A stretch of 20,620 nt of DNA from a virus: IMG/VR virus record IMGVR_UViG_3300036944_000816, positions 1 through 20,620 of that record; one strand, 5' to 3'. This document shows, one piece after another, positions 1,282 through 14,908 of the stretch (positions within the stretch are counted from its first letter, which is position 1; every line of letters starts with the position of its first letter). Made by a program: the position numbers and the translations under genes. The notes beneath the pieces are model-generated. The model was not told where the DNA came from. It worked only from the letters and a program-made list of their open reading frames with translations, and did not search any database.

Positions 1282-1728
1282 ATGGCTTATAGTGAAGAAA
1301 AAAAGAATGAAGTTTTTGAATATATCTGTCAACAAATTGAAACAGGACGTTCTTTACGTTCAATTTTAAAGAATGATAATGATATGCCAAGTAGCTCAAC
1401 TTTCTTCATTTGGTTAACAGAAGATGTATTAAAATCGAAACGATACGAATTAGCTACTGATTTAAGAACCGACGCTTTATTTGATGAAATAGTAGAAATC
1501 GCTTATAATACAGAGCAAGGAATCACAACTAAAGTAAATCAAAAAGGAGAGTTTGAAGAAACTACTGGCGATATGTTAGGGCATAGAAGATTGAAAATTG
1601 ATGCTCTTAAATGGTCATTATCTAAACTAAATCCAAAGAAATACGGAGATAAGACAGAAGTATCTTTAAGTAACAAAGAAGTAACTGAAATAATACTTAC
1701 CGATGCAACTAAAGATATCAACGCTTAA
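1282..1728 (+). CDS. terS: Terminase small subunit
   Basis: This 148-residue protein has the layout of Sf6-type small terminases. An N-terminal helix-turn-helix-like part (residues about 1-45, with MPSSSTFFIWL) is followed by a central helix of the type YELATDLRTDALFDEIVEIA and then the typical RRLKIDALKWSLSKLNPKKYGDKTE block at about 103-127. Small terminases form a ring that recognises the packaging site on phage DNA and hands it to the large subunit. The gene starts right after the lipoprotein stop and overlaps the large terminase gene by 26 bases. Function is inferred from family resemblance and from the adjacent large subunit. Confidence 0.85.
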   Translation: MAYSEEKKNEVFEYICQQIETGRSLRSILKNDNDMPSSSTFFIWLTEDVLKSKRYELATDLRTDALFDEIVEIAYNTEQGITTKVNQKGEFEETTGDMLGHRRLKIDALKWSLSKLNPKKYGDKTEVSLSNKEVTEIILTDATKDINA

Positions 1729-2908
1729 ACACCAAAGGGATTTTATCAACTCCAACGCAACACATACAGCACTTATAGGCGGTTATGGTAGTGGAAAATC
1801 CTTTTGCGGTGTTGCTAAAACAATAATAAAGAAACTTCAATACAAAGGAATTGATGTTGCTTATTACTTACCTACATACGGACTTATTTCGGATGTTGCT
1901 ATTCCTAAATTCTGTGAGCAACTTACAAAATACGAAATTCAATATACTTTAAATAAGTCAGACAATCGTATTACAACGCCTTACGGATGTATTATATTGC
2001 GTAATATGTCAGACCCTGAAAGGATAGTAGGTTATGAAGTTGGATATTCTTTAATTGATGAAACAGATATATTATCTAAGGAAAAGATGGAGGATATATT
2101 TGTCAGGATTATTGGTCGTAACAGGTCAAGATTGCCAAATGGAGAACAAAATAAAACCGATGTAGTTGGAACACCTGAGGGATTTAAGTGGCTTTATGAT
2201 TTCTTTGTAAAAAATCCAAGTGAAAATAAAGTAATTGTAAAAGCTAAAACCCTTGATAATCCTTTTTTACCTACTGATTATATCCAAACTCTTTTAAATA
2301 CTTATACTAAAGAACAAGCAGACGCATATTTGAATGGTGAATTTGTTAACCTTAACTCAGCAAGTGTTTATACTTCTTACAATAGAAAAGCGCATAGGAC
2401 AAACGAAACACATTTACCTAATGAGCAGTTATATGTTGGGTTGGATTTTAACGTTACTAATATGAATGCAGTTGTTCACGTCTTAAGAAATGCTAAGTTA
2501 TACGCTATTGGAGAAATTGCAGCAGCATACGATACTCAATCAATTTGCGATTACTTAATAGAAAACTACCCAACGAATAAAATTATAATGATACCTGATG
2601 CAAGTGGAAACGCTCGAAGTAGTTCGGGAGCTTCTGACTTTTCAATTATAAAACAAAACGGATTTACTATTGATGCACCGAGAAAAAACCCACCAGTAAC
2701 AGAAAGAGTAAACTCAGTTAATTTAGCTTTTCAAAATGATAATTATTTTGTTAATGATAAATTATGTCCTACTTATGCTGAGGCTTTAGAAAATCAAGCA
2801 TATAGAAATGGAGTTCCTGATAAACAATCTGGGTTTGACCACATAACAGAAGCGGGTGGATATTGCGTACATAAAAAACTATTTGGAAAAATTAGTCAAG
2901 TATTATAA
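1703..2908 (+). CDS. terL: Terminase large subunit (packaging ATPase and nuclease)
   Basis: This 401-residue protein carries the two domains of the DNA packaging motor. The N-terminal ATPase has Walker A GGYGSGKS at residues 26-33 and a Walker B-like YSLIDE at 115-120, with E120 as likely catalytic glutamate. The C-terminal RNase H-like nuclease has the three expected acidic positions: D248 in LYVGLDFN, D299 in IMIPDASG and D379 in GFDHITEAGGY. It would translocate DNA into the prohead through the portal and cut it into genome units. The ATG at 1703 lies inside the small terminase gene and sits just before the KHQRDF block that precedes Walker A in this family. The length is slightly short but complete. 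Confidence 0.93.
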   Translation: MQLKISTLKHQRDFINSNATHTALIGGYGSGKSFCGVAKTIIKKLQYKGIDVAYYLPTYGLISDVAIPKFCEQLTKYEIQYTLNKSDNRITTPYGCIILRNMSDPERIVGYEVGYSLIDETDILSKEKMEDIFVRIIGRNRSRLPNGEQNKTDVVGTPEGFKWLYDFFVKNPSENKVIVKAKTLDNPFLPTDYIQTLLNTYTKEQADAYLNGEFVNLNSASVYTSYNRKAHRTNETHLPNEQLYVGLDFNVTNMNAVVHVLRNAKLYAIGEIAAAYDTQSICDYLIENYPTNKIIMIPDASGNARSSSGASDFSIIKQNGFTIDAPRKNPPVTERVNSVNLAFQNDNYFVNDKLCPTYAEALENQAYRNGVPDKQSGFDHITEAGGYCVHKKLFGKISQVL

Positions 2909-2932: not shown

Positions 2933-3130
2933 ATGGCAAAGAAAAAAATACCTTTAAAGGATTTAGGGAAAAATAAAGAACATTTATTGCGATTGTTTCC
3001 TTTCTTAAAAAAAGAATACAGATCGATTGTAAAAAAAGATTTAAACAATCAAGAAACATTTAAGGAACTATTTGGAGAGTTACCATACGAACCACATTTT
3101 ATAAAAGCAATATATGAGTATCAAAAGTAA
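2933..3130 (+). CDS. Small basic hypothetical protein
   Basis: This 65-residue, Lys-rich protein starts MAKKKIPLKDLGKNKEH and has no membrane segment or motif I recognise. It is preceded by a promoter-like box and overlaps the next gene by 17 bases, so both are probably translated together. It sits between the large terminase and the tail-assembly-chaperone-like gene. A small head-tail or assembly factor would fit the position, but nothing in the sequence proves it. The start is the first ATG after the large terminase stop. Confidence 0.6.
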   Translation: MAKKKIPLKDLGKNKEHLLRLFPFLKKEYRSIVKKDLNNQETFKELFGELPYEPHFIKAIYEYQK

Positions 3131-3551
3131 AAACGATATACCTTATTTGAAATTTATTGAGTTTCAAAAAGCTATTGAAGAACACGCTACAGATGAATGG
3201 TTTGTCGCTTTACAAGTAATGCAAAGGTTTTATCCAAACAAAAAAACAAAGATTGCCGAAAGGTTAGAGGATTTTAGAAAGGCTCTTGTATCAACTACAC
3301 CAGCAAAGATGAATTTTAAATTAGATTTGCAATTTACTAACGCTGGTAAATTTATCGATGCTGATACATTAGTTCAAGAAAACGAAATAATTGAGTTCTT
3401 AAAATTAGTTATTAAACCTAAATACTTTTGGCAAAGGATAAATTATAATAAAATTAGTTTAGCGGATGTAACAGCGGTTCTTTCGCTTTTTACGAAGTAT
3501 CAACAGATATTAAAAGCCGATACGAGTGGATTTACAACCCACCACCAATAG
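3114..3551 (+). CDS. Tail-assembly-chaperone-like protein, unshifted product
   Basis: This 145-residue product stops at the TAG at 3549-3551. The N-terminal part (LKFIEFQKAIEEHATDEWFVALQVM), the FKLDLQFTNAGKFIDADTL block at about residues 68-86 and the helical part after it resemble, as far as I recall, a small protein found in the tail modules of Bacteroidetes siphophages, in the role of lambda gpG. Such chaperones coat the tape measure before the tail tube polymerises. The last residues (ADTSGFTTHHQ) look low in structure and unlike the rest, whereas the -1 frame over the same bases continues into good protein, so this is probably the short form of a frameshift pair. The family call is inference; the open frames are seen directly. 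Confidence 0.65.
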   Translation: MSIKSKNDIPYLKFIEFQKAIEEHATDEWFVALQVMQRFYPNKKTKIAERLEDFRKALVSTTPAKMNFKLDLQFTNAGKFIDADTLVQENEIIEFLKLVIKPKYFWQRINYNKISLADVTAVLSLFTKYQQILKADTSGFTTHHQ

Positions 3552-3748
3552 CAAGTTCGGGAGATGTATCAGGCTCTGTTGAGAGAAAGGAATTTGTACA
3601 ACATTATGGGATTTATGCCGAGATAACTTATTTACTTTGCACTACTTATAATTACACACATGATGAGGTTTGGAGTTGGGACATAGATAAGTTTTTATTT
3701 CAAGGCGAATATTTAATTAGGAAAAGAATTGTTGAAAATATAAAGTAA
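3114..3748 (+). CDS. Frameshifted tail-assembly-chaperone-like fusion (-1 product)
   Basis: The -1 frame is open from 3458 to the TAA at 3746-3748 and has no ATG, GTG or TTG codon anywhere, so it cannot be started independently. Its translation is protein-like: RYEWIYNPPPIASSGDV, then HYGIYAEITYLLCTTYNYTH, then FLFQGEYLIRKRIVENIK. It fills the otherwise empty 195 bases before the next features. A -1 shift between 3458 and 3551 joins it to the gene starting at 3114 and gives 211 residues against 145 unshifted. Lambda gpG/gpGT is the model: both forms are needed in a fixed ratio for tail assembly. Possible slip points are the T-run at 3487-3491 and the A-run at 3512-3515. A plain frameshift mutation or sequencing error is the alternative. 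Confidence 0.65.
3486..3517 (+). promoter_or_regulatory. Candidate -1 ribosomal slip sites
   Basis: Two homopolymer runs lie within the stretch where both frames are open. At 3486-3494 the zero-frame reading is CTT TTT ACG; a tRNA on TTT can move back one base onto TTT again. At 3510-3518 the zero-frame reading is TTA AAA GCC; a tRNA on AAA can move back one base onto AAA. Neither is a full X XXY YYZ heptamer, because the P-site codon re-pairs poorly. The second site would join ...YQQILK to SRYEWIYN.... I cannot decide between them from sequence alone. Confidence 0.4.
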
Positions 3749-3768
3749 AACGTATGAAGATATACGTT
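3749..3768 (+). promoter_or_regulatory. GAAGAT-loop hairpin upstream of the next gene
   Basis: AACGTAT (3749-3755) pairs perfectly with ATACGTT (3762-3768) around the six-base loop GAAGAT. It fills most of the 27-base gap between the frameshift-frame stop and the ATG at 3776. There is no U-tract after it, so it is not a terminator. A second hairpin with the same loop and the same stem length but another stem sequence lies at 10744-10763. A role in translation of the gene at 3776 or as a binding site is possible but unproven. Confidence 0.45.
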
Positions 3769-3775
3769 ACAGATT

Positions 3776-4228
3776 ATGAACGAAATAACCAAAGTCTACG
3801 ATTACGTTATTAACTTATTCGACTCAAACGAATTAGTTAATACTATTTCTATTGTACCAACTATCGAAATGGATAACAACAAAGAAAATATTTATCCTTT
3901 GGTAAATGCTGACTTAACAGCAACAGCAATAGAAGATAATATTATTATTTGCGATTTCGAGATTACAATAGTTCAACAAAGAAATACTACTAATAATAAG
4001 ACTGATTCTAAATTATTAAACGATACTAACTATCTTGATAATATGAATGAAACACATTCTATTACTACAAGGTTTATTAATGTGGTTTCAGAACAAAACA
4101 ACAACGATAATATTGAGTTAGATTCAATTACTAAATTACGACCTTTGAAAAATTGGGGGCGTAATTCATTAGATGGATTTCAATTTAATGTAAGTTTGTC
4201 AATTCCTAATAGTGGTAAAAGTTGTTAA
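3776..4228 (+). CDS. Putative tail-completion or tail-terminator protein
   Basis: This 150-residue protein has a layout I recognise from a Bacteroidetes phage family with a tail-completion-like role. The N-terminal helix is MNEITKVYDYVINLF. The strands NTISIVPTIEMDNNKENIYPLVNADLT follow at about residues 22-48, then the strand IIICDFEITIVQQ at about 55-67. The C-terminal stretch ends GFQFNVSLSIPNSGKSC. Tail-terminator proteins cap the tail tube and form part of the joint to the head. The assignment rests on remembered family shape and on neighbours with neck-like features. The stop overlaps the next start as TTGTTAA. The GAAGAT hairpin lies directly upstream of the ATG. Confidence 0.5.
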   Translation: MNEITKVYDYVINLFDSNELVNTISIVPTIEMDNNKENIYPLVNADLTATAIEDNIIICDFEITIVQQRNTTNNKTDSKLLNDTNYLDNMNETHSITTRFINVVSEQNNNDNIELDSITKLRPLKNWGRNSLDGFQFNVSLSIPNSGKSC

Positions 4229-4611
4229 GCGAAGTTGAAATAAGAGCGATTGCGCAAAATATAGTTAACAAAGCGAAGTCGACAGCTCATGTTGAACAAG
4301 GCTCATTAAAGAAGTCTATTGCTTTTACGTATGTTAGAGGACTTGTAACATTCAGACAATTATACTACGGACAATGGAATGAAAACTCACAACTTGAAAA
4401 GTATGCAAATCAAATGATGCCGAGTGGTGTACCTTACAAAGTTGTTTTAACTAAATTAGGTGGCGATACATACGAAAGTGGAAAAACCAAACAAGGGCGT
4501 AAAACTCAAAGAGTAGCGGTTGCACAAGCGTTAAGAAATTCAAGTAGTAATGTAAAGAAGTTAATAGCATTAGTTCAAGCGAAGCGTAAAGATGGCAAAG
4601 AGAAGAAGTAG
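4222..4611 (+). CDS. Putative neck/tail-completion protein (HK97 gp10-like), TTG start
   Basis: This 129-residue basic protein carries EQGSLKKSIAF at about residues 25-35 and RQLYYGQWNE at about 45-54. The pattern (glycine, small loop, amphipathic strand, then YYG) is typical of HK97 gp10-like proteins that complete the neck or tail. The frame has an in-frame stop at 4216-4218 and no ATG until about residue 65, so TTG at 4222, overlapping the preceding stop, is the only sensible start. The C-terminus (LIALVQAKRKDGKEKK) is strongly basic. The next gene looks like a paralogue: both share a G-x-L step followed by a Q-(L/M)-(Y/F)-Y-G-x-(W/Y)-N block. The function is an inference. Confidence 0.6.
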   Translation: MLSEVEIRAIAQNIVNKAKSTAHVEQGSLKKSIAFTYVRGLVTFRQLYYGQWNENSQLEKYANQMMPSGVPYKVVLTKLGGDTYESGKTKQGRKTQRVAVAQALRNSSSNVKKLIALVQAKRKDGKEKK

Positions 4612-4927
4612 AGAGCAGTTGAAAGTTGACCGACTTATTAAAGCCGAGCTACTTATATTGAAAGAAAAGATAATCGATGTCGCACAACCAAATTCAAGAC
4701 GTGATACAGGAAGGCTTCAAGATGAAATGAACGGACGTGTTGACCCCGATACCAGACTAACGATGTATCAAATGTTTTATGGAGCTTACAACTATCCAAA
4801 AGGAAAAGAAAGCGGAGAAAAGAATGCGCTACTTATTGAAATGAAAAAACTTATACCCGATACTACAAAAATAATAATAGGGAATATTAATGAAATTATT
4901 AACGATCCTTTCAAACAAAAAAAATAA
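4592..4927 (+). CDS. Putative neck/tail-completion protein, paralogue of the preceding gene
   Basis: This 111-residue basic protein has SRRDTGRLQDEM at about residues 35-46 and YQMFYGAYNYPKG at about 59-71. The TGRL step followed by an FYG block is the hallmark of HK97 gp10-like head-tail joining proteins. It overlaps the preceding gene by 20 bases, and its pattern parallels that gene, suggesting an old tandem duplication. The basic N-terminus (MAKRRSREQLKVDR) could contact DNA or acidic head proteins. It ends directly before the start of the large tail gene at 4928. The exact role in the neck is inferred from pattern, not from a search. Confidence 0.55.
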   Translation: MAKRRSREQLKVDRLIKAELLILKEKIIDVAQPNSRRDTGRLQDEMNGRVDPDTRLTMYQMFYGAYNYPKGKESGEKNALLIEMKKLIPDTTKIIIGNINEIINDPFKQKK

Positions 4928-8517: not shown

Positions 8518-10686
8518 ATGGAAGATATTAGACAAAATATTGAGCTGAATTATAACACAAATGCCGAAACAACTGCAAAAGAAGTAGAAGTTTTAGCAAA
8601 TTCTGTTGATAATGTAACCGATTCTCAGGATAAAAACACCGCTTCGACAAAGAAAAATGAGCAATCAATGTCTTCTTTTAAAGCTCAATTGCGTCAAGCT
8701 AATCAGGAGTTATTAAAAGTATCACAAACTTATGGAGAAACTTCACAAGAAGCAGTTAAAGCAGCTAAAAAAGTGGCGGAGTTAAAAGACCAAATGACAT
8801 TTGCAAAGGATTTAGTAGACAAATTTAATCCAGACCAAAAGATGAAAGCGCTAACCGCTGCAACATCATTAGCGGGAACTGCAATGACTGGAGTTGTTTC
8901 AGGAATGGCTTTATTTGGTGACCAATCAGAAGACACCGCTAAAATGCTTTTAAAAGTTCAATCTGCAATGGCTTTTAGTCAAGCTATTAGTGGGCTTTCA
9001 GAAGTAGGTGACCAATTTAAAACTTTAAAAGCCACAATAGTATCAGCATATGTTGGAATTACAACAGCAAAAACAGCCGATACTGTAGCCACAGAAGCAA
9101 ATGCAGTTGCTGAAAACCAATCCTTTTTAGCAAAAGCAAAGAATGTAGTTGTAAATGGTGCTTTATCAATCGCTACAGGAATAGCAACAGCAGCACAATG
9201 GGCGTGGAATACTGCAATGGCTGCTAATCCAATAGGTGCAATAGTAGCTGTAGTAGTAGCTTTAATTGCTGCAGGGTATGCTTTAGTAAAAATGTTTCAA
9301 GCGAGTTCAGCAGAAGCAGAAGCAGCTGCAGCAGCTAACGCAAAGTTAGGTAGTGAAATGCGCAACCTTGAAAAAAGTACAGCTAAGTCTAATGAAGAAA
9401 TGGACATGGCGCATAAGCGAAGTTTAGCTTTAGCAAAAGCACACGGAGCAAGTACAGAGGCTATTCGTAAATTATCTTTATCATTAGTAAATCAAGAAAT
9501 TAAAGAAAAAGCATTAAACGCCGAGAAAGCACGTTCTATATTTTTAGAAGCGCAAAGAATAGCAATGTCAGAAGACGCTACAGATGCGCAAAAGAAAACA
9601 GCACAAGAAGCATATAAATTATTTCAATCTCAAAATGATACATTAAAAGAAAGTTTAAAAAAACGTAAACAAATAACAATTGATAACGAGGTTGAAATAG
9701 CACAAGAAAAAACAGACGCACAAAATAAAGAAAAAGAAAACCAAAAAAAGCATAATGAAGACCTTGCTAAAATAGCAGAAGACAAACGTAAAAAAGATGT
9801 AGAGGCTAGAGAAAAAGAACGTAAAGCACATGAGGACTTTTTAAACTCAATCCAAAATTTAGAAACAAATAAGTTAAAAGAGCTTCAAGATATTAATGCA
9901 AAAACTGAACAAGAGAAATTAGACTTACAAGAGCAAAGAGATTTAGCCGAGATAATGGCTATTGAAAAGAAAGGTGGCGATATTGCTAATTTAATGGCTT
10001 TTCATAATGAAAAATATACCGCATTAAATGAAGAACTTGACCAAAAAGAAAAAGAACGTTTAGCGAAAGTTTCAGAAGATAGACTTAACGCTTTAATGGA
10101 AGAACTCGATGCAGATGTTACAGCAAGAGATGAGAAAGCAAAAAAAGAATTAGAAATTGATAAAGCACTTGCAGACCAAAAAAGAGCAAACCAAGACCAA
10201 TTAGTTAGTAGCGGAGAGCAATTAATAAAAAATATTCAGAATTTAGCTGGCAAAAATAAAGCTATTCAAAAAGCGGCTATTATTGCGGATGGGGGTGTGG
10301 CAATTGGTAAAGCAATAGCAAACACAAATGAAGCAGTAACAAAAGATTTAACCAAAGGCGCTCCGTTCTCTGCTCCCTTAGTAGCCTTAGATATAGCAGT
10401 GGGAGCTACAAGTATAGCTTCTATTATAAAAGGAACTAATCAAGCATTACAGGCAGTTGGAGGCGGAAGTGTGTCAAGCGGTGGCGGAACTACAACAACA
10501 GGAGGAGGCACAAGCGCATCGCCACAAATGTCTTTTCAAACAAGTAAAGAAAATCAAATTGCTACAAGTTTAGGAGGTAAATTAAATGAACAACCTCCGA
10601 TAAAAGCATATATGACAAGTGGGGATGTAGCCAATGCTTTACTATTACATAATAAAGCTATTTCAGAAAATTCAATCGGAGGGTAA
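8518..10686 (+). CDS. Tape measure protein
   Basis: This 722-residue protein has the classical build of a tape measure. An N-terminal coiled coil (residues about 30-105, Gln/Lys/Glu-rich) precedes an Ala/Gly-rich helical region with a hydrophobic segment starting NPIGAIVAVVVALIAAG at residue 237. A long charged coiled coil covers about 370-560 (many EKE and KKE runs). A Gly/Ser/Thr-rich linker lies near 650-665, and the C-terminus PIKAYMTSGDVANALLLHN is a tail end I know from Bacteroidetes tape measures. The protein fixes tail length and is expelled into the host at infection. By the rough 0.15 nm per residue rule the tail would be near 105-110 nm. The frameshift chaperone expected to coat it lies 5 kb upstream instead of adjacent. 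Confidence 0.88.
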   Translation: MEDIRQNIELNYNTNAETTAKEVEVLANSVDNVTDSQDKNTASTKKNEQSMSSFKAQLRQANQELLKVSQTYGETSQEAVKAAKKVAELKDQMTFAKDLVDKFNPDQKMKALTAATSLAGTAMTGVVSGMALFGDQSEDTAKMLLKVQSAMAFSQAISGLSEVGDQFKTLKATIVSAYVGITTAKTADTVATEANAVAENQSFLAKAKNVVVNGALSIATGIATAAQWAWNTAMAANPIGAIVAVVVALIAAGYALVKMFQASSAEAEAAAAANAKLGSEMRNLEKSTAKSNEEMDMAHKRSLALAKAHGASTEAIRKLSLSLVNQEIKEKALNAEKARSIFLEAQRIAMSEDATDAQKKTAQEAYKLFQSQNDTLKESLKKRKQITIDNEVEIAQEKTDAQNKEKENQKKHNEDLAKIAEDKRKKDVEAREKERKAHEDFLNSIQNLETNKLKELQDINAKTEQEKLDLQEQRDLAEIMAIEKKGGDIANLMAFHNEKYTALNEELDQKEKERLAKVSEDRLNALMEELDADVTARDEKAKKELEIDKALADQKRANQDQLVSSGEQLIKNIQNLAGKNKAIQKAAIIADGGVAIGKAIANTNEAVTKDLTKGAPFSAPLVALDIAVGATSIASIIKGTNQALQAVGGGSVSSGGGTTTTGGGTSASPQMSFQTSKENQIATSLGGKLNEQPPIKAYMTSGDVANALLLHNKAISENSIGG

Positions 10687-10726
10687 AAAAAATATAAATT
10701 TATTTAGATTAATTAAAAATAATTAA

Positions 10727-10734
10727 TATATTTG
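10727..10734 (+). promoter_or_regulatory. TATATTTG promoter box before the small RNA
   Basis: TATATTTG is a perfect match to the Bacteroidetes -7 box. TTAG at 10704-10707 lies 19 bases upstream in the place of the TTG element. The region around it is almost pure A/T. The box is followed by TAGAATTA, as after the box at 2918. It is placed so that a transcript would start near 10740, just before the hairpin at 10744. Confidence 0.5.
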
Positions 10735-10739
10735 TAGAA

Positions 10740-10841
10740 TTAAATAGTGTGAAGATGCACTATGCCAATCAAAAATGAATTTGAAAACAACACAAGTACA
10801 AATCAAATCCTTAATCGATTAATTTCGGTTAAGGATTTTTT
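10740..10841 (+). ncRNA. Candidate small RNA or leader between tape measure and protease genes
   Basis: In the 168-base gap between two structural genes there are, in order, a promoter box (10727-10734), a 7-bp hairpin with loop GAAGAT (10744-10750 pairing with 10757-10763, last pair U-G), about 40 unpaired A-rich bases, and a strong terminator (10805-10841). A transcript from about 10740 would be near 100 nt. The terminator ends about 13 bases before the next start, so it could also act as an attenuator for the head genes. The same loop and stem length recur at 3749. A 28-codon ORF (10762-10848) overlaps the structure and could be a leader peptide. I recognise no Rfam family. The promoter and terminator are seen directly; the RNA itself is inferred. 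Confidence 0.5.
10805..10841 (+). terminator. Strong factor-independent terminator
   Basis: AAATCCTTAA (10805-10814) pairs perfectly with TTAAGGATTT (10829-10838). A U-G, a C-G and a G-C pair extend the stem inward to 13 bp, leaving an eight-base loop (10818-10825). Six T residues follow (10836-10841). It would end the small RNA and limit read-through from the tail genes into the head genes. Confidence 0.8.
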
Positions 10842-10854
10842 ACGTTAAAAAAAA

Positions 10855-11790
10855 ATGAAAACATATAAAATAACATTTAAAGGAGGTCACAAAGTTAGCT
10901 TAGTCAAAGACCCAGCTATTGAGGAAACACTTTTAAAATTCAGTGCAGAGCAAGAAGAAAAACTATACTTTGCTAATGATGAAAAAAAAGTAGTTTATTC
11001 TGTGGCTATGATTCCAAATAAGTTAATATTCAGAAAAAATATTAATGGAGAACCAGCGCAGGTGTTTTATGATGAACAAGCTATTGAGGATTTTCAACAA
11101 CAATATTTTAGAAACCAAGATTTATCAACTAACATTAATCACGCTCAATTTAATACAGATGGTATATTCCCTTTTGAAAGTTGGATAGTTGCTAATAGCG
11201 AAGTTGACAAATCAAAAGAGTTAGGATTAAACGCTCCGAATGGTAGTTTAGTGATGGGTTTTAAAATCGAAAATGATGCTATTTGGAATGATGTTAAAGA
11301 GGGTAAACTCGATGGATTAAGTATTGAGGGTTTTACGCGAATTGAAGAAGTAACCACAAACACAATTAATATGAATACAGAAAAAAACCCGCAAACTTTG
11401 TGGGACACGCTTAAGGCGTTTTTTGCAGTTGAAACACCGACTGAAAAAACACCCGAAGAAATTGCAACAGAAGCAGCTAAGGAGTCAGAAGACACTCCTG
11501 CAGAAACTACTGAGCAAACTTTGCAAAAACAAGTTGATGAGTTGACTTCTGAAAATGAAAGTTTAAAAGCTGAAATAGCTAACTTAAAAGCAGAGCAAGT
11601 AAAAGCTGACACTGAAATGACTACAATGAAGTCAGAAAAAGAAACAATGACTACTGAAATTGAAAAATTAAAGGGTGAAATTGTTGAAGTAAAAATGGTA
11701 AAAAATGTTCCTCAAAATGAAAATTTAGATAACATTCCATACGAAAAAATGACTAACAAACAAAAAGTAAAATTTAACCGAGAAAACTAA
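10855..11790 (+). CDS. Prohead serine protease (XkdF / peptidase S78_2 type) fused to scaffold-like tail
   Basis: This 311-residue protein has an N-terminal protease domain (about 1-165) with the features of the XkdF-like family. NINHAQFNTDG carries the likely catalytic His at residue 96, then comes FESWIVANSE, and DGLSIEGFTR carries the likely nucleophile Ser156. The domain would cleave scaffold and capsid during head maturation. From about residue 173 the protein changes to a Glu/Thr/Ala-rich linker and then a coiled coil (about 219-285) typical of scaffolds. It precedes the capsid gene by six bases, the normal protease-scaffold-capsid arrangement. The scaffold part may also be made separately from an internal ATG at 11371. 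Confidence 0.8.
   Translation: MKTYKITFKGGHKVSLVKDPAIEETLLKFSAEQEEKLYFANDEKKVVYSVAMIPNKLIFRKNINGEPAQVFYDEQAIEDFQQQYFRNQDLSTNINHAQFNTDGIFPFESWIVANSEVDKSKELGLNAPNGSLVMGFKIENDAIWNDVKEGKLDGLSIEGFTRIEEVTTNTINMNTEKNPQTLWDTLKAFFAVETPTEKTPEEIATEAAKESEDTPAETTEQTLQKQVDELTSENESLKAEIANLKAEQVKADTEMTTMKSEKETMTTEIEKLKGEIVEVKMVKNVPQNENLDNIPYEKMTNKQKVKFNREN
11371..11790 (+). other. Possible nested scaffold gene within the protease gene
   Basis: An in-frame ATG at 11371 (residue 173 of the protease) lies exactly at the border between the protease domain and the scaffold-like part, preceded by the A/T-rich CACAATTAAT. Starting here would yield a 139-residue coiled-coil protein (MNTEKNPQTLWDTLKAFF...). Lambda C/Nu3 uses such a nested start. 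The position is seen; use of the start is inference. Confidence 0.35.
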
Positions 11791-11796
11791 CAAACT

Positions 11797-12828
11797 ATGG
11801 CATTAACATTTACAGGCACTAAGACTGCACAATCAGAATATCCTGAGATAATTCAAGAGGTATATGCTGACTCTCCTACATTTAGAGGAGAAACAATTGA
11901 AATCGTAGAGGGGCATAAGTCAGGAATGGATATTTACGAAAGCTCCGCTTCTGTAACATTCTCCGCTGCTAATTATGGCTCAGTAACTACTGATAACGTG
12001 GATTTACAAACACAAAAATCAACAGTAAACTTAAAAACATTTAACGTTGAGGGTATTATCGACGAAAGCTCTTTATTAAACACTCGTTTTGAGAAATCTA
12101 TGAAAGCTGGTGCTTACGAAGTTGTTTCAGATGAGTTCGATAAACGTGTATTAATCCAAGTACAACCAGCAACAAGTGCAAAACTTGAGGCTAATGTATG
12201 GAATGGAGCAACAGCTGCAACTAAAACTGCAATTGCAGCGTTAACACCTGGAGCTGGTCAAGGAAGTATTACTGCATCAGCACAAACGAAAGTAGCTGCA
12301 ATGCCTACAACTTTATTCGATTCGATTCCAGCAACAATGTTGTATAATGATTCTCAATCAAAAGCAACACCTGGAGCTGGTTTAGGAGATTATATTAAAG
12401 TAACAGGAACAACAATCACTACTTCTAATATTGTAGCTGAGTATGTAAAAATCTACAACGCAATCCCGAATGATATTTTAGTTCAGATAGGAGATAATGC
12501 TCCAGTAATTTTTGCCCCAAAAGCACACTACAAATTAATCAAATCTGTAAATAGAGTTCAAGGCGCAGCATTACAAGAAAACTTTGTTGGAAACACATTT
12601 AACGATATGTATTTCAATGATGTGAAAATTATATTTGTTGACTTAGTTGACTTTGTAATTGCAGCGCAAAAATATAACTTAAAATTAGTTATGGACTTAC
12701 TATCTGATAGCTCTCAATTGATTATTGAGAAAGAAGCTAACGCCTCTACTAGACGTATCCTAAAAATTATCAACACAATGAATACTTGGGTTGTTAAACA
12801 AAAATGGAACGTTCTTTACAACGGATAA
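11797..12828 (+). CDS. Major capsid protein
   Basis: This 343-residue protein directly follows the protease-scaffold gene. It has the look of Bacteroidetes phage capsid proteins: a small start (MALTFTGTKTAQSEYPEII), an extended N-arm, a long alpha-helical stretch (FEKSMKAGAYEVVSDEFDKRV, about 99-119), Ala/Thr-rich loops and a beta-rich C-terminal domain (NDILVQIGDNAPVIFAPKAHYKLI, then KLVMDLLSDSSQLIIEKEANAS). An HK97-like fold is expected. It carries two short similar loops (TPGAGQGS and TPGAGLGD) encoded by near-identical bases. A terminator follows at 12838, as usual for a highly expressed gene. The call rests on position, size and character rather than a motif. Confidence 0.8.
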   Translation: MALTFTGTKTAQSEYPEIIQEVYADSPTFRGETIEIVEGHKSGMDIYESSASVTFSAANYGSVTTDNVDLQTQKSTVNLKTFNVEGIIDESSLLNTRFEKSMKAGAYEVVSDEFDKRVLIQVQPATSAKLEANVWNGATAATKTAIAALTPGAGQGSITASAQTKVAAMPTTLFDSIPATMLYNDSQSKATPGAGLGDYIKVTGTTITTSNIVAEYVKIYNAIPNDILVQIGDNAPVIFAPKAHYKLIKSVNRVQGAALQENFVGNTFNDMYFNDVKIIFVDLVDFVIAAQKYNLKLVMDLLSDSSQLIIEKEANASTRRILKIINTMNTWVVKQKWNVLYNG

Positions 12829-12837
12829 AATATTAAC

Positions 12838-12861
12838 AAGGGCGTGAAATACCGCCCTTTT
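12838..12861 (+). terminator. Terminator after the capsid gene
   Basis: AAGGGCG (12838-12844) pairs perfectly with CGCCCTT (12853-12859) around an eight-base loop, with four Ts at 12858-12861. The stem is GC-rich in very AT-rich surroundings. The short U-tract suggests partial termination that lowers, but does not stop, transcription into the tail tube gene. Confidence 0.7.
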
Positions 12862-12875
12862 AAAACTTAAAATAT

Positions 12876-13436
12876 ATGTCAATTACTTGTAAAACACTTA
12901 CAAAAAGTTTAAAGAAACCATGTGTTAAGTCAATCGCTGGTGTCCGTGCTATTTCATTTGGTTTATATGACCCTATGGATAGAATTGCAACTACTTCGAC
13001 TGGTGTTGTTGATGTCGCTGCTGTTTATGGAGCTGGTACTCTTTCAAGGTTTGAAGTAAAAAGTACAACTTCAAAATATACCGAAACAAGAACAACAGGA
13101 GAGGATACTAACTCAACTAACGTAAAAGGAACATTCCCTTTAATGTTAGCTATTCCACCAGATGTAACTACTCGTTTAGATATTGCTAAAATTGAGCAAA
13201 CATTAGCAGAACGTCAATGGACTTTGTTCATTGAGTACAAAGATGGTTCAATTGTTTGTGCTGGTTCTCAAAATGGTGCAGATGTATTGACTTCTGATAG
13301 TGATTCAGGAGCTACTGCAACTGACAGAAACGGATTTATGGTAAATATCACAACAGATGAACCTGACTATTCAAGTTTATATGTTCTTAGTGGAGATGCA
13401 TTAGTAGATTACGCTGCTGCAATTATGACTTATTAA
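12876..13436 (+). CDS. Putative major tail (tube) protein
   Basis: This 186-residue, beta-rich protein is of tail tube size. Features include a Lys/Cys-containing start (MSITCKTLTKSLKKPC), VRAISFGLYDPMDR, a strand-rich region with many Thr (YTETRTTGEDTNSTNVKGT, likely an extended loop at about 69-87) and a C-terminal part with YSSLYVLSGDALVDYAAAIMTY. Tail tube proteins stack in hexameric rings around the tape measure. It lies immediately after the capsid gene and is enclosed between two terminators (12838 and 13461), which fits a heavily used structural gene with its own mRNA level. A head decoration protein is the alternative. Confidence 0.6.
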   Translation: MSITCKTLTKSLKKPCVKSIAGVRAISFGLYDPMDRIATTSTGVVDVAAVYGAGTLSRFEVKSTTSKYTETRTTGEDTNSTNVKGTFPLMLAIPPDVTTRLDIAKIEQTLAERQWTLFIEYKDGSIVCAGSQNGADVLTSDSDSGATATDRNGFMVNITTDEPDYSSLYVLSGDALVDYAAAIMTY

Positions 13437-13460
13437 TCATAATGATAAATTAAACATAGA

Positions 13461-13487
13461 AAAGGCGGGATAAACTCGCCTTTTTTT
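13461..13487 (+). terminator. Terminator after the tail tube gene
   Basis: AAAGGCG (13461-13467) pairs with CGCCTTT (13477-13483) around a nine-base loop, and the T-run continues to 13487. This is a textbook factor-independent terminator in the 67-base gap before the next gene. Confidence 0.85.
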
Positions 13488-13503
13488 ATAAAAAATAAAG
13501 AAA

Positions 13504-13830
13504 ATGAAAGTACTTTTTATCGATACTGATTTAAACTTTTCTTTAATTCCACGAAAATATCCAACTATTAACGATACATTATCGGTAACTTTAAGAAATG
13601 AGGATTCTGATTTAAAAATAGTACCTAATTTTTCATTTTCAGTAAACGAAAAATTAAATATTACTTTAGAAAATAATTCAGATTTCAAAGTTTCAAATAA
13701 ATATGAAGTCGAAATTAAAAACGATGGAGATATTATTTATTTAGGAAAACTTTTATTTTTAGAAGAAAATACCGACGTACAAAATTACACTTATGGAAGT
13801 CAACCAAACTCAAAATTCCAATATGAATAG
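13504..13830 (+). CDS. Hypothetical protein before the portal
   Basis: This 108-residue protein is rich in Asn, Asp, Leu and Val, and its alternating pattern suggests mostly beta strands (LFIDTDLNFSLIPRKYP, DTLSVTLRNEDSDLK, NEKLNITLENNSDFK, KYEVEIKNDGDIIYLGKLLF). No signal peptide or membrane segment is seen. The repeated strand-turn layout suggests a small beta-sandwich; in this place a minor structural or head-completion protein is possible. I cannot name the family. The gene begins 16 bases after a terminator, and its end overlaps the portal gene. Confidence 0.6.
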   Translation: MKVLFIDTDLNFSLIPRKYPTINDTLSVTLRNEDSDLKIVPNFSFSVNEKLNITLENNSDFKVSNKYEVEIKNDGDIIYLGKLLFLEENTDVQNYTYGSQPNSKFQYE

Positions 13831-14908
13831 TTCGCCTCAAGTGTTTGAAAGCACTATGAGGTTTAGTAAGTTCGAGCCTATTGATATTAAACCAGTAATG
13901 GGGCGTAAATGGATTACTAACGGGGTTAATAACAAGAACTATAAAAGCTATCAAGATGCTTACGATGACAGCCCAACCAACGCTTCGATTATCAATGCAA
14001 TGGTTAACTTTATTTATGGTGATGGGTTAATCGACAAAAGCGGTTTAAATGTTTCTACTTTTTTAAGTAAAGAAGATGCTAAACTAATATGCAAAGATCA
14101 TAAATTATTCGGAGGTTTTTCGATTCAAATTATTTGGCACGAAAAGAAAATATTAAAAATTGAATATTTGCCAGTTTACAAACTTGGTATTAATGTAACT
14201 GATAATTTAAAAGTTGATGGTTATTGGTATAGTTGGGATTGGACTAATTACGGACGTTACAAAAGAGAGTTTATTCCAATTTTCACAGGAGTTTATAAAG
14301 ATGGTCAAGATGTAGAAGCGTTACTTATTCGTAATCCAACAAGCGAGCCATTTTTTCCTATACCTGACTATTTCAGTTGTATTCGTTGGTGCAAAGTAGA
14401 GGCTGAACTTTCAAATGCTGGTATTAAACACTTCTATAACTCAATGAGTGCTATGACTATTATTAATTATAATAATGGTAGAATTACAGATGAGGAAGTG
14501 GCAAAAGAACAAGCTAATAAAGTACGTGAAAAAGCAGTAGGAACTGAAAATCAAAGTGCTGTTTTAGTAAGTTTTAATGAGGGTTCAGAAGAAAGCTTGG
14601 TAGTTGACCAATTACATCCGCCTGAATTAAACCAACAAAATGTATTTTATAGTGAAGAAGCTGAAAGAAAAATTATAGTTGGACATAGCGCACCGCCTAT
14701 ATTATTTGCTGGTAGTGGAAATAGTAACGGATTCTCAAATAATGCTGATGAAATTGCAATATCTACTAAACAATTATACAGAAGAAATATTAATCCAATG
14801 CGTGAGGTTATTTTGGATGGACTAATGAAAGTATTTAAAGTAATTGATAGCAAATATAATTTAGACTTTAAGAATTTTGAAGAGGAAGCAATAGAAACAA
14901 ATCAATAA
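13793..14908 (+). CDS. Portal protein
   Basis: This 371-residue protein has portal-type features. After a start region with GRKWITNGVNNKNYKSY comes an anchor-like helical part (DAYDDSPTNASIINAMVNFIYGDGLI, about 51-76). The block AKLICKDHKLFGGFSIQIIWHEKKI follows, and then the typical LPVYKLGINVTDN stretch. The C-terminal half has long helices (EEVAKEQANKVREKA; NADEIAISTKQLYRRNINPMRE). Portals form the ring through which DNA enters and leaves the head. Two starts are possible: ATG 13793 (38-base overlap with the preceding gene) and ATG 13823 (8-base overlap, dropping ten residues). The gene comes after the capsid and tail tube genes, whereas in most phages it lies beside the terminase. Confidence 0.75.
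   Translation: MEVNQTQNSNMNSSPQVFESTMRFSKFEPIDIKPVMGRKWITNGVNNKNYKSYQDAYDDSPTNASIINAMVNFIYGDGLIDKSGLNVSTFLSKEDAKLICKDHKLFGGFSIQIIWHEKKILKIEYLPVYKLGINVTDNLKVDGYWYSWDWTNYGRYKREFIPIFTGVYKDGQDVEALLIRNPTSEPFFPIPDYFSCIRWCKVEAELSNAGIKHFYNSMSAMTIINYNNGRITDEEVAKEQANKVREKAVGTENQSAVLVSFNEGSEESLVVDQLHPPELNQQNVFYSEEAERKIIVGHSAPPILFAGSGNSNGFSNNADEIAISTKQLYRRNINPMREVILDGLMKVFKVIDSKYNLDFKNFEEEAIETNQ

Follow-up and report, generated by a model that had tools for sequence, protein, structure and literature searches.

The DNA analyzed here, referred to below as the window, is a virus record of 20,620 bases. Its terminase genes start at 1282 and 1703, the latter (1703..2908, + strand) being assigned as the terminase large subunit from PHROG and Pfam matches and from synteny, and this conserved upstream neighbor is followed by a small gene at 2933 and by an ORF at 3114..3551 (+) with a 145-aa product. 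Behind this ORF, as an initial sequence-only reading had noted, a -1 frame is open from 3458, just past a TAG, to a stop at 3746-3748, a run of 96 codons without any ATG, GTG or TTG; both frames are open together over 3458..3551 (+), this overlap contains a T-run (TTTTT, 3487-3491) and an A-run (AAAA, 3512-3515), and the stretch from 3552 to 3775 would otherwise have no gene. We found that 3458-3748 is the only + strand frame of at least 60 codons in the window that lacks every start codon. The next gene, 3776..4228 (+), encodes a 150-aa predicted tail terminator, which occupies the same place in most relatives at 29-62% identity (93% in the closest). The order terminase, 2933, two-frame gene, 3776, 4222 (HK97-gp10-like), 4592, 4928, 6301, tape measure is conserved, and the tape measure gene itself lies at 8518..10686 (+; PHROG tape measure matches, E 4.5e-6). 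Farther on are a protease gene (10855), a probable major capsid gene assigned by position (11797) and the portal gene (13793). The adjoining genes 4222-4611 and 4592-4927 both resemble neck proteins of the HK97-gp10 type, although for the second this was judged only by eye. Some close relatives carry insertions of a few hundred bases in the gap between the -1 extension and 3776 or between 3776 and 4222 (L064, 5633-6021; L072 and L074, between 5635 and 6480).

The sequence-only reading took the start-less frame as a sign that it is entered by programmed frameshifting from the 3114 gene. Chance has some part in the absence of start codons: in two sister sequences a GTG occurs 25 codons past the slip and a TTG 74 codons past it, and in a third the GTG alone is present. 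None of the three has a start codon near the beginning of the conserved -1 part. The frame is nevertheless far beyond chance, because its protein sequence is conserved in relatives: a search with the -1 product returned 21 viral contigs at 43-99% identity. Besides the window itself, about 20 contigs have the two-frame layout; their identity to the window is roughly 30-99%, and with it they form six groups, namely group A (the window, L003, L004 and L005, 97-99%), group B (L006, L007, L009 and L010, about 55%), group C (L072-L074), group D (L075 and L083), group E (L086-L094, including Flavobacterium prophages) and group F (L096 and L097), with L072-L074, L075, L083, L086-L090, L096 and L097 coming from wider searches. 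A genome scan, empty in its first run, yielded prophages in Flavobacterium nitrogenifigens, F. panici, F. daemonense and Flavobacterium sp. MC2016-06, which together with the metagenome contigs shows that the layout spans independent samples and isolate genomes. Among annotated phages, tblastn with the proteins of the window and of its close relatives gave no match. Two-frame genes, with the -1 frame following, are also present in distant relatives, namely L062/L063 and the cultured Nonlabens phages P12024L and P12024S. In these Nonlabens phages the -1 part is annotated as a 55-aa gene of its own, as would suit a separate gene translated by reinitiation or from a nonstandard start codon. We consider this very improbable, given the start-less frame of the window, the lack in relatives of a start at any shared or suitable place, and the onset of -1 conservation precisely at the slip codon, a point midway through a predicted helix.

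In many other relatives a single frame codes for the whole protein (L008, L011/L032, L012-L023, L027/L031, L029, L030, L033, L034, L045-L047, L055, L059, L060, L066 and L068), and they align without gaps through the join: the window reads ...SLADVTAVLSLF-YEVSTDIKSRYEWIYNPP and L008 ...SLAEAELVISNWVEFSSEIKSRYEWIYNPP. The translation of 3458-3748 thus has homologues of both kinds that the sequence-only reading had envisaged, lying in the -1 frame in some relatives and fused to the 3114 product in others. It had also proposed that close relatives with an uninterrupted frame would point to a mutation or sequencing error in a normally one-frame gene. The relatives at 97-99% share both frames, and the single-frame version appears only in more distant ones, at about 40-55% identity and below. 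An accidental split can draw on the existence of these single-frame genes and on phage 6H, which seems truly broken at a similar spot, but metagenomes sampled independently, Flavobacterium genomes and the cultured Nonlabens phages all show the same split, with coding constraint on both halves across long branches, and an accident is exceedingly unlikely. In 6H (L105, KC959568; 10048-10927, minus strand), the distant homologue is truncated at TGT TTT TTC TAT... and its remainder lies in another frame; FPSV-F7 and 23T, phages almost identical to it, carry an unbroken frame of 293 aa, and 6H seems locally altered or mis-sequenced. In a tree of the family, groups A-E stand together with modest support (82/74) on long separate branches, group F stands apart, adjoining a single-frame gene, and the minimum number of changes between the two-frame and one-frame states on this unrooted tree is two.

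More distant homology was traced by profile comparison. The Nonlabens/L062 family matches a Duneviridae family (PHROG 25418; Flavobacterium phages FPSV-F7, 23T and laban6-1, Cellulophaga phage Ingeline) at 95% in hhalign, and the latter lies in a tail gene context and, unlike the window gene, is a single uninterrupted frame of 293-301 aa. The link between the window family and the Nonlabens/L062 family is weaker (hhalign 31%, E 5e-4) but is backed by a common gene position and common neighbors, and the window and Duneviridae families gave no direct profile match. At the DNA level, TGGATTTACAACCCACC (window 3527-3543, coding WIYNPP) is identical across groups A and B and the single-frame L008, which may exceed what protein conservation by itself needs.

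Each of 19 two-frame genes was joined at its own T-run before alignment, and in all 19 the join fell in a single alignment column, at a Phe codon with a T ahead. In the window this is 3486..3494 (+), zero-frame CTT TTT ACG, a reading common to groups A, B and D; group C has CTT TTT ATA, group E has TCT TTC followed by TTG, TTA or TCA, and group F has GAT TTT TTC GTC, containing the classical T TTT TTC. At the matching place, L062/L063 and P12024L/S read GTT TTT TTT TGG and CTT TTT TTT TAT, with the classical T TTT TTT in P12024L/S and L062. The 3114 frame is kept in all relatives as far as the slip codon, its final 19 codons being read only without a shift, and the -1 frame is conserved from its first codon, TAC 3491-3493, whereas the -1 reading ahead of 3491 is not. 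The extension (3491..3748, +) thus adds 85 aa past the slip, and 3114-3491 joined to 3491-3748 gives a long product of 211 aa. The substitutions follow this division. Third-position excess lies in the zero frame ahead of the join and in the -1 frame past it; between the window and L006, changes at the three codon positions number 38/35/62 in 119 codons before the join and 29/21/46 in 78 codons after it. In the 20-codon overlap the window and L004 differ by one change, vs. 32 in the 126 codons ahead of it, as expected if both readings matter. Among degenerate columns with an invariant amino acid in groups A-D, the codon itself is kept in only 12 of 67, both slip codons being among the 12, and CTTTTTA is invariant across these groups; in group E, 15 of 83 such columns keep the codon, TCT TTC included. 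In the window, T TTN codons account for 4.4% of all codons.

Of the two slip sites offered by the sequence-only reading, the T-run fits this pattern and the A-run does not: YEVSTDI, ahead of the A-run, already belongs to the conserved -1 reading, and the A-run is absent in group B. The possible P-site -1 slips in the overlap are at 3458 (TTTAGCG), 3488 (TTTTACG) and 3512 (AAAAGCC), and none of the in-frame P-site slip positions over 3458-3551 forms a classical X XXY YYZ heptamer, so that the site in the window is indeed nonclassical; such heptamers occur only in group F, P12024L/S and L062. Comparison of the relatives shows that each part is protein-coding, that the two are joined as one protein in some relatives, and that the frame switches at the Phe codon. 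The persistence of the layout in deeply separated branches, the unbroken alignment of single-frame relatives across the join and the use of one switch codon throughout all speak strongly for programmed frameshifting, and we regard a programmed -1 shift as the best explanation, the shift itself being highly likely.

Based on this comparison, two proteins would be made from one mRNA. Most ribosomes would presumably finish 3114-3551 and release the 145-aa helical protein, the short form probably outnumbering the long one. A fraction would slip back one base after CTT and ahead of the rare codon ACG, the Phe-tRNA on TTT 3489-3491 re-pairing with TTT 3488-3490, and would resume at TAC 3491 to give the 211-aa product with a C-terminal helical domain. 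We infer that this is a ribosomal slip by P-site re-pairing of a single tRNA. T TTT (3488-3491) permits perfect P-site Phe re-pairing, and only the Phe-tRNA can do so in the window, where the neighboring CTT would need pairing with GCT after a -1 step and ACG (7% of Thr codons in the window) would become TAC; Phe in the P site while the slow, rare ACG enters is therefore probably the likeliest step. Two tRNAs can re-pair at the sites of group F, P12024L/S and L062.

The same long protein would also result if RNA polymerase added a base within the T-run. Eight-T runs, a length sufficient for polymerase slippage, do occur at the site in the distant relatives P12024L/S and L062, but the run in the window is just five Ts, and group E (TCTTTCT) keeps the same switch codon without any long run. 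Such transcriptional slippage is accordingly improbable, and a slip of the ribosome is the reading that we retain.

We found no stimulatory RNA structure shared among the relatives (RNAalifold on an ungapped alignment), and single-frame controls showed no clear difference. The z score of the downstream fold is -0.55 for the window, -2.7 and -1.4 for group B and -2.3 for group F; small lineage-specific hairpins begin a few bases past the slip codon in several groups, and only groups B and F stand apart from shuffled sequence in the wider fold. No Shine-Dalgarno-like sequence was seen ahead of the slip site in the window. Other backward slip motifs that are not heptamers are listed by PRFect (PMC10885494). 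We tentatively suggest, at less than even odds, that flavobacterial phages hold a -1 class conserved throughout the family, in which a single P-site Phe-tRNA slips before a codon that does not re-pair (ACG, ATA, TTG or TCA), in hosts in which translation seldom relies on Shine-Dalgarno pairing. In this reading, the class would have been exchanged repeatedly with a plain fused gene or a classical heptamer, at one and the same codon of a chaperone family unrelated to gpG.

As judged from these sequences, it is very probable that a phage of Flavobacterium type produces one tail-assembly protein in two versions, short and long, through a -1 slip of some ribosomes at five Ts. Frameshifting of this kind in lambda-type tail chaperones is textbook knowledge (PMC5009743), and the two-frame gene resembles such genes in having one start, a short and a -1 extended product (145 and 211 aa) and a shift near the 3' end of the short frame, as placed by comparison. 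AlphaFold2 models are almost all helical, both for the short form of the window (pLDDT 91) and for a fused relative (pLDDT 85), and place the join inside a long helix leading into a helical C-terminal domain. The gene lies in a run of tail and connector genes in which we found no other chaperone candidate before the tape measure gene. The name of tail chaperone given in the sequence-only reading is thus in keeping with layout, fold and gene order, and finds no counterpart in homology searches: the window protein matched nothing in Pfam, in PHROGs or in a PDB fold search, its BFVD matches were to unnamed phage proteins only, and hhalign with lambda G and HK97 gp13 was negative. Nor does the gene occupy the expected chaperone location between the major tail protein and tape measure genes, as it comes after the terminase genes with five genes separating it from the tape measure gene.

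This position invites the alternative that the frameshifting is real and the product not a chaperone, being instead another virion protein with a short and an extended form, such as a neck protein or head-tail connector. The neighbors of the gene are connector-like (3776, terminator-like; 4222, HK97-gp10-like) and do not include the tape measure gene, its likely distant counterpart in the Duneviridae phage Ingeline comes after the portal and adaptor genes, and many relatives have the long form alone. However, the model of the two-frame protein is almost all helix, whereas frameshift-extended versions of major tail and capsid proteins are rich in beta structure, and connector roles seem to be filled by the window genes 13504, 14911, 3776 and 4222; we consider a connector or other virion role unlikely, though a serious competitor. 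From layout, all-helical fold and gene order, a tail assembly chaperone like gpG/gpGT is plausible, its short and long forms acting together to link the presumed partner, the tape measure protein, with the tail tube. The best explanation overall, to which we give a probability of roughly two in three, is a -1 frameshift yielding the short and long forms of such a chaperone.

Compared with lambda gpG/gpGT, which slips by -1 at G_GGA_AAG, the window has a site that is not a classical heptamer and a shorter extension (85 aa vs. about 144), its family has no detectable sequence similarity to the lambda proteins, and many of its relatives are single-frame. HK97 gp13/gp14 is alike in that its chaperone, of 128 aa, has a -1 extended form in the annotation, and differs in showing no profile match and in its location between the major tail and tape measure genes; in both lambda and HK97, in contrast to the window, the tape measure gene comes immediately after the chaperone genes. 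The Nonlabens phages P12024L and P12024S (genes 40 + 41, JQ823123, and genes 38 + 39, JQ823122) have the same post-terminase place and a zero/-1 overlap at T TTT TTT, but there the pair is annotated as two unrelated hypothetical proteins, and its similarity to the window gene is weak. In the cultured members examined the annotations are separate or plain hypothetical proteins, and our literature search found no paper that describes frameshifting for this family. The slip trick is known from lambda; what appears to be undescribed is the protein family, together with its unusual site of slippage and its on/off pattern across relatives.

Tail-chaperone frameshifting has been mapped mostly in phages of other hosts, and flavobacterial phages thereby gain a likely chaperone gene that every annotation examined had missed or split. 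The relatives form a natural series at one homologous codon, comprising a classical heptamer, a degenerate site and a fused gene, and the need for the short form and the working of a weak one-tRNA slip site in Bacteroidota therefore become directly testable. Two minor features of the window concern its wider organization. The module order over 8518-14908 is unusual, with the tape measure gene ahead of the protease and capsid genes and the portal gene past the capsid gene. An intergenic repeat, 88% alike, lies ahead of genes at 2902-2933 and 10712-10742 and holds TAAATTTG and TATATTTG, respectively, which resemble the -7 element of Bacteroidota promoters.
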